Source: Alcaligenes sp. SDU_A2 (GTDB lineage: Bacteria > Pseudomonadota > Gammaproteobacteria > Burkholderiales > Burkholderiaceae_B). Taken from it: a stretch of DNA of 64,000 bases. The notes below the pieces were generated by a model. That model was not told where the DNA came from. It searched no databases and saw only the letters and a list, made by a program, of their open reading frames with translations. Made by a program: the position numbers and the translations under genes. Shown here in pieces: positions 47,413-61,426 of the stretch (its first letter is position 1; each line of letters starts with the position of its first letter). The stretch covers positions 2,914,001-2,978,000 of the forward strand of contig NZ_CP151273.1 in the NCBI RefSeq assembly GCF_038237375.1, read 5' to 3'.

Positions 47413-47502
47413 CAGTCCAGCCCCGCTTACGCGGGGAACACCTGCTCTGCAACGTGTCGGGTGACCTGTATTTCGGTTCATCCCCGCTGACGCGGGGAAC
47501 AC
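47413..47502 (-). CRISPR. Decayed two-repeat CRISPR remnant
   Basis: Repeats at 47413-47441 (three mismatches in its outer part) and 47474-47502 (one mismatch, CTGACG for CTTACG) flank a 32-nt spacer, the exact geometry of the main array. A third, heavily changed unit may follow near 47533-47560 (GGTTCTTCGAAGCATTCCGG). It lies on the trailer side of the main array, where old repeats usually decay. Confidence 0.85.
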
Positions 47503-47576
47503 TTGTTCTTCTCGTAGCAGGCCCTTTTCTGGGTTCTTCGAAGCATTCCGGGAATCAATTTTTACTAATTCGATGA

Positions 47577-47830
47577 GGAGCTGGCTTTTTGAAGGCACCA
47601 TTCAAGGCGCAGCTCGCTCGAACAGGGCTGATGGCTTGCCGGCGCTGCGCGCCGGTGCCCTGGTCGGGCCACATGGCCGGGCGCGTCGTTAACTCCGGCG
47701 GCTTGCTTGTCCACCGGACAAGCAAGCCGCCGTCGAACAGAACGACGCTTGCACCCCGTCCCCGCGCCCCGCCTGCGGCAAGCCATCCGACCCGCCCCGT
47801 CCAAGCGTACTGCGCCTTGACCGGCTCAAA
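47577..47830. repeat. Large palindromic dispersed repeat, variant copy
   Basis: Outer arms ATTCAAGGCGCAG (47602) and CTGCGCCTTGAC (47811-47822) face each other. The centre is a perfect 17-bp stem with a 3-base loop (CGGCGGCTTGCTTGTCC at 47696, complement ending 47732). Its order of landmarks (CCCTGGTC, GTCCAC-GGAC, TCGAACAG, CCGCCTGCGGC) is that of the 8972 element, but the stem sequences differ while still pairing. The left arm is repeated at 2069-2150. No coding sequence is supported here. Confidence 0.8.
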
Positions 47831-47835
47831 ACTCC

Positions 47836-48245
47836 GACGACATCGCCCCGGCTATACGCCTTCATGCCAAACGGGAAATCAGCGGATGACTGTTACCTTG
47901 TACGGTGTACACGGACGCTCCGCCATTTGGGCCAAGCACAGCGGTGCCGTTCTCGCCATGCCCGCCTTAGCAGGTCAGCGGGCGAGTCAGGGCCTTCGCC
48001 GCAGGCGGGATGCCGGGGCGGGAGACAAGGGGCGTGTTGTTCGAGCAGGACGCGTGTGATTCGTCCACTGGACGAATCACCCTGCGAGTTCACGCCCCGC
48101 CCGCCCCGGTATCCAGACCAGGGAACCCGCGCACAGCGCGGGCGAAGGACCCAGCCAAGCTGACCTGCTAAGGCGGGCATGGCGAGAACCCGAGGTTCTC
48201 TCTGCTTGGCCTAAACGGCTCAAGCAATACGAAGGAATCCCCGAA
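47836..48245. repeat. Large palindromic dispersed repeat, copy 2 (core inverted)
   Basis: The core 47926-48215 is 290 bp long, against 291 bp in copy 1, and matches it as its reverse complement. The flanks 47836-47925 and 48216-48245 match copy 1 in direct orientation. Inner arms CTCGCCATGCCCGCCTTAGC... and their complement are perfectly paired over 28 bp but differ from the arms of copy 1. The centre is GATTCGTCCACTGGACGAATC. It ends 14 bp before the first trailer-end CRISPR repeat. Confidence 0.85.
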
Positions 48246-48258
48246 CCCTTTTCTGATT

Positions 48259-49937
48259 CGGTTCATCCCCGCTTACGCGGGGAACACACAAACGAGGGGC
48301 TGCCGACAACGCGCAGTCGCGGTTCATCCCCGCTTACGCGGGGAACACCAAGGCGGGGCTACTCAAGACCGACTCTATCTCGGTTCATCCCCGCTTACGC
48401 GGGGAACACGTGAGCATGCCAAGCAGGGCCACACCCAACGCCGGTTCATCCCCGCTTACGCGGGGAACACTTTGCTGATCAGGCCGGTATGGCCGTGGGT
48501 GACGGTTCATCCCCGCTTACGCGGGGAACACACCGCCATAGTAACCCTGGCGGATAAACATTTCGGTTCATCCCCGCTTACGCGGGGAACACCTATCTCG
48601 GGCGCTCAAGGAAAAGTCTTGGACCTGGTTCATCCCCGCTTACGCGGGGAACACCGTAGACTTTGGTCAAGGCCGTGGCGGTATTCCCGGTTCATCCCCG
48701 CTTACGCGGGGAACACCGTAGACTTTGGTCAAGGCCGTGGCGGTATTCCCGGTTCATCCCCGCTTACGCGGGGAACACAACTTGGCTAGCTGATCTTGTG
48801 AGCGCGTCAGCGGTTCATCCCCGCTTACGCGGGGAACACCCCTCTGGCACATCTACGGCCACCACTATGCGCGGTTCATCCCCGCTTACGCGGGGAACAC
48901 ATTTCCATCACGGTAAACCCGACCTGGGCACACGGTTCATCCCCGCTTACGCGGGGAACACGGTATGTACTAGGCGTGTACGCGATGTGGTAGCGGTTCA
49001 TCCCCGCTTACGCGGGGAACACGCCGAACCGCTCACACAGCGCGAAGCGGAAATCGGTTCATCCCCGCTTACGCGGGGAACACCAATACCTGGTTCAAGC
49101 AGATGACGCCGCGCCTGGTTCATCCCCGCTTACGCGGGGAACACCACGTAAGAAAATCCGCTCATGGCTCCACCCCCGGTTCATCCCCGCTTACGCGGGG
49201 AACACAGGGTCGGCGTCAGGTATTTCGTAGTCGCCCACGGTTCATCCCCGCTTACGCGGGGAACACGAACGCCTGCGCCGTATGTCCGAAATGGTACCCG
49301 GTTCATCCCCGCTTACGCGGGGAACACCCATACTGGCGGGTCGGCTTCCGTTGCGCAAACGGTTCATCCCCGCTTACGCGGGGAACACTTCGCCAGGTTC
49401 TTGCGCATCTCGTCCAAGCCCGGTTCATCCCCGCTTACGCGGGGAACACTCTTCCCTGGCAATGGTGGAGTCATGATGCAGCGGTTCATCCCCGCTTACG
49501 CGGGGAACACGATCTCAAACTGGAACGGGTAGGCGGTATCCCCGGTTCATCCCCGCTTACGCGGGGAACACTTTTGCTCAGCACCTACAAAGTCGAGAAA
49601 TTGCGGTTCATCCCCGCTTACGCGGGGAACACAAGTGGCGGCTGCCCTCAGCAAAGGTAAATTCCGGTTCATCCCCGCTTACGCGGGGAACACCGCAAAA
49701 GCACCGGGTTAAACCAATTGACCTGCGGTTCATCCCCGCTTACGCGGGGAACACCCGCTAACCAATATGACCTATTTGGCCAGACCCGGTTCATCCCCGC
49801 TTACGCGGGGAACACGCATCAGCCAAACGCGGGTCTACAACAACATCCGGTTCATCCCCGCTTACGCGGGGAACACGTTACCAGCAATTGTGGACGTATC
49901 TTTTTTACCGGTTCATCCCCGCTTACGCGGGGAACAC
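48259..49937 (-). CRISPR. Type I-E CRISPR array, 28 repeats and 27 spacers, no cas genes in window
   Basis: Twenty-eight 29-nt repeats with the stem CCCCGCTTACGCGGGG, beginning CGGTTCAT and ending GAACAC on the plus strand; the unit is 61 bp, or 62 bp in three consecutive units from 48565 to 48751. Read on the minus strand the repeat starts GTGTTCCCCGCG and ends GATGAACCG, the type I-E form with the 5' handle ATGAACCG. The A+T-rich leader at 49938 fits that direction. The outermost base varies (T instead of C before 48627 and 49117), as expected for the PAM-derived base. The spacers at 48655 and 48717 are identical. No cas gene lies on either side. Confidence 0.98.
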
Positions 49938-50050
49938 TCTAAAAACAAACCATTGATTTCAATAGAAAAATACCAGACCAGATTTTCCACCAAAAAAACA
50001 ACTGATTCCGCCGCCTGCTTTCTACCTGCTTTGCAAGGTCACCGATGTTA
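49938..50050 (-). promoter_or_regulatory. CRISPR leader
   Basis: The first 75 bp beyond the last repeat are strongly A+T-rich (AAAAACAAACC..., then GAAAAATACC and CCAAAAAAAC), unlike the surrounding G+C-rich DNA. The array end, the direction of the repeat and the decayed trailer on the other side all mark this as the leader carrying the array promoter. The rest of 50051-50231 shows nothing else I recognise. Confidence 0.85.
49946..49958 (-). promoter_or_regulatory. IHF-binding consensus in CRISPR leader
   Basis: The minus strand reads AATCAATGGTTTG, a full match to WATCAANNNNTTR, 8 bp from the leader-repeat junction. In E. coli type I-E, IHF binding at this distance is needed for Cas1-Cas2 to insert new spacers. 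Confidence 0.75.
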
Positions 50051-50231: not shown

Positions 50232-51044
50232 ATGTCCAGCAAAAACGAAACTCAAGCCGAATTCACCAGCAGCCTGTCGCTGCGCACCGGCGAACATACC
50301 TGGGGCAGCGCACGGCGCATGACGCTGCTGGCAGCCATTGGTGAGCACGGCTCGATCTCGGCCGCCGCACGCAGCATAGACATCAGCTACAAGGCTGCCT
50401 GGGACGCCATCGACATCATGAACAACATGGCCGGCGAACCCCTGGTGCTGCGCAGCACCGGCGGCCATCGCGGCGGCGGCGCTACGCTCACGCCCAAAGC
50501 ACAAGAACTGCTGGATCTTTACCAGACCTACGACCGGCTGCACCAACGCTTCATGGCGCGTATCGGGCGCTTGATGCCCACAGCAGCCACCCAAATGGAG
50601 CTACTCCAAACCATGATGCTGCAAACCTCCGCCCGCAACCAACTCCCCGGCATCGTCACCGCCGTCAAGACCGGTGCCGTCAACGACGAAATCCATCTGG
50701 ACATCGGCCAGGGACAAAGCGTGGTGGCATCCATCACACGCGAAAGCACCGAGAACCTGGGCATACGCGAAGGGCAGAAAGTACTGGCCTTTCTAAAAGC
50801 TTCGTCCATCATGATCGGCACCACGGACACACGCACCAGCCTGTCGGCCCGCAATCAGTTGCCCGGCACCATTACGCAAGTGATCCCCGGCGCGGTCAAT
50901 GCCGAAGTACGGCTGGAGCTGCCGCAAGGCCTGGCGCTGACGGCGACCATTACCCTGGACAGCACGCAACGCCTGCAGCTGGAAGTCGGCCAGCAAGCCT
51001 ACGCCTTGTTCAAAGCGTCCAGCGTCATGATTGCAACGGTATAA
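50232..51044 (+). CDS. modE: Molybdate-responsive regulator ModE
   Basis: A 270-residue protein. The winged-helix DNA-binding domain (about 15-110) contains AIGEHGSISAAARSIDISYKAAWDAIDIMN and RSTGGHRGGGATLT. It is followed by two TOBE/Mop domains, each beginning SARNQLPGT/I and ending FLKASSIMI or FKASSVMI, which bind molybdate. The ATG at 50232 has GAGG ahead; an earlier TTG lacks one. It is convergent with modC, the two reading frames overlapping by 20 bp. It is expected to repress modABC when molybdate is plentiful. Confidence 0.95.
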   Translation: MSSKNETQAEFTSSLSLRTGEHTWGSARRMTLLAAIGEHGSISAAARSIDISYKAAWDAIDIMNNMAGEPLVLRSTGGHRGGGATLTPKAQELLDLYQTYDRLHQRFMARIGRLMPTAATQMELLQTMMLQTSARNQLPGIVTAVKTGAVNDEIHLDIGQGQSVVASITRESTENLGIREGQKVLAFLKASSIMIGTTDTRTSLSARNQLPGTITQVIPGAVNAEVRLELPQGLALTATITLDSTQRLQLEVGQQAYALFKASSVMIATV

Positions 51045-58023: not shown

Positions 58024-60312
58024 ATGAGCACGACGGTAGACCGCCAAGCCGCATTGGATTATCACGAATTCCCCATTCCCGGCAAAGTCACGATTGCCGC
58101 CACCAAGCCGCTGGTCAACCAACGCGATCTGGGGCTGGCCTATTCGCCCGGCGTGGCCGCCGCCTGCGAAGAGATCGTCGCTGACCCCAAGAATGTGTTC
58201 CGCTTTACGGGCCGTGGCAATCTGGTAGGCGTAATCTCCAACGGCACCGCCGTGCTGGGCCTGGGCAATATCGGCGCGCTGGCCTCCAAGCCGGTGATGG
58301 AAGGCAAGGCCGTCCTGTTCAAGAAGTTTGCCGGCATGGATGTGTTCGACATCGAGATCAACGAAACCGACCCGGACAAGCTGGTGGACATCATCGCCGG
58401 TCTGGAGCCGACCTTCGGCGGCATCAACCTGGAAGACATCAAGGCCCCCGAATGCTTCGAGGTGGAACGCAAGCTGCGTGCGCGCATGAACATTCCTGTG
58501 TTCCACGACGATCAGCACGGCACGGCCATCTGCGTGACCGCTGCTTTCCTGAACGGTCTTAAAGTGGTCGGCAAGGATATCAAAACGATCAAGGTCGTGA
58601 CCTCCGGGGCCGGGGCCGCCGCCTTGGCCTGCCTGGATCTGATGGTGGACATGGGTTTGCCCGAGGAAAATGTCTGGGTAACCGACATTGACGGCGTGGT
58701 CTACCAGGGCCGCCCCGGCCACCAGGTGCCCGAACTGGCGCGTTTCGCCAAGGACACTCAGGCACGCACGCTGAATGATGTCATCGACAATGCCGACGTC
58801 TTTGTCGGCCTGTCGGCCGGCGGCGTCTTGAAAGCCGAGATGCTCAAAAAAATGGCCGACCGTCCTTTTGTGATGGCCCTGGCCAACCCCACTCCCGAAA
58901 TCCTCCCCGAAGTGGCGAAGGAAGCACGTCCTGACGTTATCATGGCCACCGGTCGTTCGGACTTCCCGAACCAGGTCAACAATGTGCTGTGCTTTCCCTA
59001 CATTTTCCGAGGTGCCTTGGATGTAGGTGCCACCACCATCACCCGTGGTATGGAAAAAGCTGCTGTGCATGCCATCGCCGGATTGGCCGAAGAAGAACAA
59101 GATGAAACCGTGGCCGCCGCCTACGGTGGCTACGGACTGAGCTTTGGCCCCGATTACCTGATTCCCAAACCTTTCGACCCGCGACTGATCGTGCGCATCG
59201 CCCCTGCCGTGGCGCAAGCTGCCATGCAGGACGGCGTGGCGACCCGCCCATTGGCGGATCTGGACGGCTACATCGCCAAATTGCAACAGTTCGTCTACCA
59301 CTCCGGCGCGTTCATGAAGCCGGTCTTTGCCATCGCCAAGCAAATGGTGCGCGAGGGCGGCAAAGCACGTATCGTCTTTACCGAAGGCGAAGAAGAACGC
59401 GTGCTGCGTGCGGTGCAGGTGATTGTGGACGAAAAGCTGGCGCACCCGATTCTGGTCGGTCGCCCCGCCGTCCTGCTCTCGCGCATCAAGAAGTTCGGTC
59501 TGCGCCTGCGCCTGGGCGTAGATGTGGAAGTGACCAACCCGGAATCGGATGATCGCTTTCATCAATACTGGACCACCTACTGGGAAAAAATGTGCCGACG
59601 CGGCATCAGCAAAGAAATGGCTCGCGTAGAAATGCGCCGTCGCCTGACGCTGATCGGCGCAACCATGGTCCATCTGGGCGATGCCGACGGCATGATCTGC
59701 GGCACGATCGGCTCCTACCATGCCCACCTGCGCTACATCGACGAAATGATAGGCCGCAAGCCTGACTCCAGCGTCTATGCCGCCATGAACATTCTGTTGC
59801 TGGGTGAACGCACCGTGGCCTTGACCGACACCCACGTCAACGACGACCCCAGCGCCGAACAGATCGCCGAATACACCGTGGAAGCAGCCAAAATGCTTAG
59901 TTCCTTGAACCTGGAACCCAAGGTGGCTTTGCTGTCGCGCTCGAATTTCGGCTCGGACTCGTCTTCATCCGGCCCCAAGATGCGCCGTGCCCTGGAACTG
60001 GTGCACGAACAAGCACCGGAACTGGAGATAGACGGTGAAATGCATGCCGACTGCGCCTTGGACGAAGCCTTGCGCAATCGCACCTTGCCCACCAGCACAC
60101 TCAAGGGCGCAGCCAACCTGCTGGTCTGCCCGAATGTGGATGCCGGCAACATCAGTTACAACCTTCTGAAAACCGCCGCCGGCAGCAATGTGGCCATCGG
60201 CCCCTTCCTGCTGGGAGCCAACGCCCCCGTCCATGTCCTGACCTACAGCTCCACCGTGCGCCGTATCGTCAATATGACCGCCTTGACGGTGCTGCAGGCT
60301 AATCGGGTGTAA
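58024..60312 (+). CDS. maeB: NADP-dependent malic enzyme (MaeB type) with phosphotransacetylase-like domain
   Basis: A 762-residue protein. The malic enzyme part (about 1-430) has [51 protein letters not shown] and the dinucleotide motif [16 protein letters not shown]. The C-terminal part (about 440-762) resembles phosphate acetyltransferase and is usually regulatory rather than catalytic. The enzyme converts malate to pyruvate and NADPH. ATG 58024 lies behind AGAGAGGA. Confidence 0.95.
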
Positions 60313-60335
60313 TTCGCACCAACAGGCTGTATCGG

Positions 60336-60366
60336 AAAGCCGGCCCGTTTTGGGCCGGCTTTTTTA
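60336..60366 (+). terminator. Terminator of maeB
   Basis: The stem AAAGCCGGCCC/GGGCCGGCTTT is followed by TTTTATT. Confidence 0.92.
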
Positions 60367-60508
60367 TTCTCTCTTTTTAATCACATGCATCGGAAACAAT
60401 TAAGCCAATACAAAAAATAGAAAAACCATCTCCTGCATAATTTGGAATTCCCTATACACTATCCTGACTGTCAAAACCAAAATACGAAACGGGCTCTTGG
60501 AATGAACC

Positions 60509-61426
60509 ATGCCTTCGAAACATATAACACCAACCCAGCCCTATTTCAGACACGACACGGATGTCTTGCGTTCGCGCCTGTTATCTTTGGAATTACTACG
60601 CACATTCGTGGCCGTAGTCGAATGCCAAGGGTATACCGCAGCGGCACAGTACCTGCATCGCACACAGGCATCGGTCAGCCAGCAAATCAGCAAGCTGGAG
60701 CACAGCATCGGGGTTGCGCTGTTCAACGGTTCCAGGCGTCAATTACAACTGACGGAACACGGTCAGCTCCTTCTTGATTACGCCAAACGTCTCTTGCTTC
60801 TACAGCACGAGGCCATCACGCAATTGCGTTCCGACACACTAGAAGGCGTGGTTCGCATCGGAGCCACTCACGTATACGCGACCCAGATCCTACCGGCTAT
60901 TTTGGCCAGATTTGCCCAGCGCTACCCGCATATACAAAGTGACCTTGAAGTCGGTATTGCACAGGACATGCACCGAGAGCTTGGATCCAAGTTCGACATC
61001 ACCATCAATGCCTACAGACCCGGAGAAACGCAAGGCATACTGCTGCGCCGCGACCCTGTGGTCTGGGCCATCGCCGAGCACGCCCGGCCCCATCTGAATA
61101 CGCCCGTGCCTCTGGCAACCCTGCCGCGCGGCTCTCTGTTGCGCCAATGGGCCGAAGACGCCCTGAAAGCTGCCGGGAAAAAATGGACACTGGTCCAAGA
61201 AAGTTTAAGCATAGACGTATTAAAAGCGTCTGTACTGGCAGGACTGGCCGTCGGCGTTTTTCAGAAAACAACGATTGCACAAACGCCTGGGCTGCGAACC
61301 CTGGGCACCGAAGACGGCTTCCCAGAACTCCCTTCATCAGAAATGCGCTTGGCCCGGGCCAATCGGGAACTATCCCCTTCAGCGCGCCGGCTCTATGACT
61401 ATTTGCTTGAACAACTTTCCCCATAG
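60509..61426 (+). CDS. LysR-family transcriptional regulator beside a dioxygenase gene
   Basis: A 305-residue regulator. The helix-turn-helix LRTFVAVVECQGYTAAAQYLHRTQASVSQQISKLEHSIG is followed by a ligand domain from about residue 110 (LEGVVRIGATHVYATQILPAILARFAQRYP). It is shorter than the paralogue at 56883 and of a different subfamily. It precedes the TauD-like gene in the same direction, with a weak terminator in the 174-bp gap, so it likely controls that gene. Its upstream region (60367-60508) is unusually A+T-rich and includes GGAATTCC. Confidence 0.92.
   Translation: MPSKHITPTQPYFRHDTDVLRSRLLSLELLRTFVAVVECQGYTAAAQYLHRTQASVSQQISKLEHSIGVALFNGSRRQLQLTEHGQLLLDYAKRLLLLQHEAITQLRSDTLEGVVRIGATHVYATQILPAILARFAQRYPHIQSDLEVGIAQDMHRELGSKFDITINAYRPGETQGILLRRDPVVWAIAEHARPHLNTPVPLATLPRGSLLRQWAEDALKAAGKKWTLVQESLSIDVLKASVLAGLAVGVFQKTTIAQTPGLRTLGTEDGFPELPSSEMRLARANRELSPSARRLYDYLLEQLSP

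Follow-up and report, generated by a model that had tools for sequence, protein, structure and literature searches.

Subtype I-E CRISPR-Cas systems, for which AAG is the canonical PAM, possess more than one array in Escherichia coli. A survey of such systems (PMC12814883) indicates that two or more arrays are typical for I-E, that arrays with identical repeats show comparable acquisition whatever the distance, that I-E arrays located at a distance tend to be shorter, and that systems of types I-E and I-F occur alone more often than expected. The array described here lies in a window of 64,000 nucleotides, the whole stretch of DNA that was analysed (contig positions 2914001-2978000), from the genome of Alcaligenes sp. 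SDU_A2, which is assembled as one contig of 3,652,774 bp. In all probability it is an ordinary remote array of an intact type I-E system, whose cas operon is situated elsewhere on the chromosome. The system as a whole resembles that of E. coli in its eight-gene operon, 29-nt repeat, 32-nt spacers, IHF-bearing leader and AAG PAM, and in a Cas1e that matches E. coli Cas1 very closely (full-length alignment over 299 residues, 530 bits). It differs in its three dispersed arrays, the longest of which is about 0.75 Mb from the operon, measured round the circle if the chromosome is circular. As in the multi-array loci of the survey, a single I-E operon is combined with one adjacent array and others that are remote; however, in this genome the longest array is a distant one, and there is an intact I-F system besides.

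Extent and composition of the window array

The bulk of the array is formed by 28 repeats of CGGTTCATCCCCGCTTACGCGGGGAACAC at 48259-49937 of the window, in agreement with an earlier sequence-only reading of this DNA, which had described 28 near-identical I-E repeats. A 27-nt core is invariant in 28/28 of these repeats, and a C or T at the outermost base is the sole variation among them. Both the 29-nt repeat, which has a GC-rich hairpin, and the spacers, which are 32 nt in length except for three of 33 nt, are I-E in type. Given that the leader is at the right, adjoining the modE gene, the reading direction of the array is that of the minus strand. Two further repeats lie past a 716-bp insertion at the opposite end; with them the whole array extends over 47413-49937 and comprises 30 repeats and 29 spacers. 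Its repeat-bearing parts are:

48259-49937, minus strand: main I-E array block with 28 repeats and 27 spacers, leader end at 49937
47474-47502, minus strand: older repeat past the insertion, with 1 mismatch
47413-47441, minus strand: degenerate last repeat, which forms the true trailer end of the window array

A degenerate repeat is usual at the trailer end of CRISPR arrays, and the two other I-E arrays of the genome, described below, likewise finish in one. With numbering that starts at the leader, spacers 20 and 21 (48626-48749) are the same 33-nt spacer present twice, a tandem duplication of a repeat-spacer unit.

Leader, cas operon and sister arrays

The leader side of the array contains the following features:

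49946-49958, minus strand: full IHF consensus AATCAATGGTTTG, 8 bp from the first repeat
49938-50012, minus strand: conserved leader part of about 75 bp, common to all three I-E arrays by ungapped identity and alignment
49986-49991, minus strand: GGTRGA motif (GGTGGA) at -54, at equal distance in the three leaders
50232-51041, plus strand: modE, the divergent leader-side neighbour, a host gene outside the CRISPR system

The neighbour on the side opposite the leader is a gene for a 'probable DNA repair protein' (TIGR03623), and no cas gene is present in either flank of the array within the window. Thus, the description of the array as an orphan in the sequence-only reading holds for its neighbourhood, as do the cas-free flanks with modE on the leader side and the full IHF consensus 8 bp from the first repeat on which that reading remarked. 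It fails for the genome, since the same contig encodes an intact I-E operon, with the genes cas3-cse1-cse2-cas7-cas5-cas6e-cas1e-cas2e at 60976-69861, outside the window, and all frames open. The whole-genome search proposed with that reading recovers the complete set of eight genes. Seven of them pass I-E specific models; the exception is cas3, which is recognised by the cas3_core and HD domain models and falls below the cut-off of the full-length model NF007248. The HD, Walker and DExH regions are kept in an alignment of this Cas3 to solved Cas3, Cas6e matches CasE, and E141, H208 and D221, which we take to be the catalytic residues of Cas1, read as conserved when Cas1e is aligned to its E. 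coli counterpart.

These findings decide between the two explanations that had been offered for the isolated array, namely that the cas genes act in trans from elsewhere or that they were lost recently, leaving the array as a relic. The second could draw on the window itself, which lacks a cas gene beside the array; a true orphan, however, is one whose matching cas genes are absent from its genome, and here they are found intact on the same contig. Loss is thereby refuted, and we accord it practically no likelihood. The first is supported both by the operon and by two further arrays with matching leaders. One of these, array A, adjoins the operon (contig 59869-60600; 12 repeats and one degenerate), and the other, array C, is at contig 3230085-3230599 (8 repeats and one degenerate). 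Compared with the window repeat, those of both A and C carry a different base at just one position, in the hairpin loop (GTAA vs GCAA), so that the second array suggested by the sequence-only reading was indeed found, twice over, with respect to the leader, but not with an identical repeat. The hairpins of both alleles have equal predicted stability (-15.2 kcal/mol), and each array is uniform for its own allele, as would be expected if new repeats copy the leader-side one. Since the window repeat is one base off those of the other arrays, the survey result on arrays with identical repeats applies to it only nearly.

Over the first 75 bp the leader identities are 47/75 and 43/75 in ungapped comparison, as against 23-25 in shuffles; past about 75 bp from the repeat, the three arrays show no excess of leader similarity. 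A distance of 8 bp separates the end of the IHF site from the repeat in all three leaders, and the site of array C has one mismatch. We presume the layout of E. coli leaders to be similar to that of these three. The IHF pattern has 3 matches in the 64-kb window with about 1 expected by chance, and a lone match consequently means little; what counts is that the site lies directly beside the first repeat and recurs in the other leaders of the same system. A search of GTDB contigs with a pattern of the leader end and repeat gave no match.

The comparison of the three arrays also bears on whether the window array might be an archive, from which crRNAs are still made via the distant Cas proteins while new spacers enter only at the operon-side array. 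Distant arrays have been discussed as possible archives (PMC12814883), and the window array is indeed far from the operon and has a repeat allele of its own. However, with 29 spacers it is the longest of the three, the others having 12 and 8. Its leader equals the operon-side one and, by virtue of a complete IHF site, surpasses that of array C, and the repeats nearest the leader are perfect. On this evidence an archive is improbable. The undecayed 27-nt core throughout the main block also counts in favour of an ordinary remote array of the I-E system, whereas the imperfection of both repeats past the insertion counts against it.

A transposable element inside a spacer

The sequence-only reading had placed palindromic elements after the trailer. 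This position proved to be wrong: with two older repeats lying past the 716-bp insertion, the palindromic element is inside the array, where it interrupts a spacer:

47532-48247, no strand assigned: non-coding palindromic element of 716 bp, ends GGTTC...GAACC, inside a spacer
47524-47531, no strand assigned: left copy of the 8-bp target-site duplication CTTTTCTG, with the right copy at 48248-48255
47503-47531, minus strand: split spacer, 29 nt, with its remaining 3 nt at 48256-48258 and a length of 32 nt without the insert

Removal of the element in silico joins both flanks as one 32-nt spacer with the repeat directly after it. Full genomic copies of the element end in GGTTCTTCG/CGAAGAACC and are flanked by 8-bp duplications, which agree at 8/8 positions in four copies (that of the window included) and at 7/8 in two more; the right end of the window copy is about 13 bp shorter than those of the others. 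Ends of this kind and 8-bp target-site duplications are, we assume, also those of ISL3-family elements. The window element shares both with ISL3-like non-autonomous (MITE-like) elements, but contains no transposase within its 716 bp. With its short terminal inverted repeats, 8-bp duplication and lack of a transposase, it is a non-autonomous ISL3-like transposable element that jumped into a CRISPR spacer. By such a transposition the old end of the array would have been split at a later time. The genome yields a single match to an ISL3 transposase, which is weak, at 23.1 bits, and broken by one TGA.

The genome harbors about 40 full or partial copies of the element, which is about 716-735 bp in length. 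Nine congeners yielded none at an E cut-off of 1e-50, and the copies are a lineage-specific expansion.

Spacer targets, function and origin of the array

Targets were found for 2/29 spacers of the window array, W8 and W3, both in mobile elements and both with an AAG PAM. The strong example is W8, which matches a prophage of a congener (G007:C1 near 1422385) at 30/32 positions; the two mismatches are at positions 13-14, the seed is intact, and AAG stands immediately 5'. This protospacer lies about 200 bp before a run of terminase, portal, protease and capsid genes. The weak one is W3, which matches an IMG/VR viral contig with tail genes at 25/32; three of its mismatches, at positions 6, 12 and 18, had been permitted by the search pattern. 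No match was obtained for the spacers in phage and plasmid collections, where the blastn queries were long and joined and hence insensitive for targets of 32 nt, nor in viral scans with the duplicated spacer and with W1, W2, W4, W5, W7 and W8. Congeners gave matches of about 17-25 nt at E above 0.1, which were set aside as chance.

No perfect self-target was found among the spacers. A spacer of array A, A11, matches the organism's own prophage at 27/32 positions, beside a tail fibre gene (contig 2836820-2836851). Four of the five mismatches fall at positions 1, 2, 4 and 7, and TAA stands in place of AAG. As the match is mainly outside the seed and lacks the AAG, we did not regard it as functional self-targeting; the prophage site may be related to the original target and have diverged from it.

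The genome additionally encodes an intact type I-F system at contig 2806601-2817303, with Cas1f, Cas3f, Csy1-Csy4 and an array of about 35 repeats. With an intact operon and its own 35-repeat array at 2.806-2.817 Mb, this system might be thought to serve the window array as well. However, its repeats (TTTCTAAGCTGCCTATGCGGCAGCAAAC) have a 60-nt period and are unrelated to the window repeat, and the window array is I-E in kind in its repeat, 61-nt period, leader and AAG PAM, which makes service by the I-F system vanishingly improbable.

Together, the shared leader architecture, near-identical repeats, intact operon and AAG-flanked spacer targets suggest that the distant I-E operon most likely serves the window array in trans, a function read here from sequence. 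We propose that transcription would run leftwards from the leader beside modE, that Cas6e of the distant operon would cut the transcript, and that the resulting crRNAs would be used by Cascade-Cas3. Cas1e-Cas2e with IHF would insert new spacers at the leader end, presumably also at the present day.

The I-E system itself was likely gained horizontally. This proposal is based on the phyletic pattern, in that cas1e was found in none of nine congeners and is sporadic in the family (19/251 genomes), and on the affinity of Cse1, which, in a further difference from the E. coli system, has its closest counterparts in Marinomonas and other Gammaproteobacteria (up to 57% identity in GTDB contigs). A scan of up to 1.5 kb on either side of modE in the nine congeners, allowing up to six mismatches, recovered no repeat-like sequence.

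It is conceivable, if rather unlikely, that the window array is the main, preferred site of acquisition, ahead of the operon-side array. If true, preferred acquisition at a remote site would run against the reported tendency of distant arrays to be shorter. More generally, a window free of cas genes does not by itself mark a CRISPR array as an orphan. The genome presents a clean natural case in which one operon is accompanied by three arrays, with leaders alike over 75 bp only and repeats one loop base apart, and in which spacer acquisition per array could be compared across the three.
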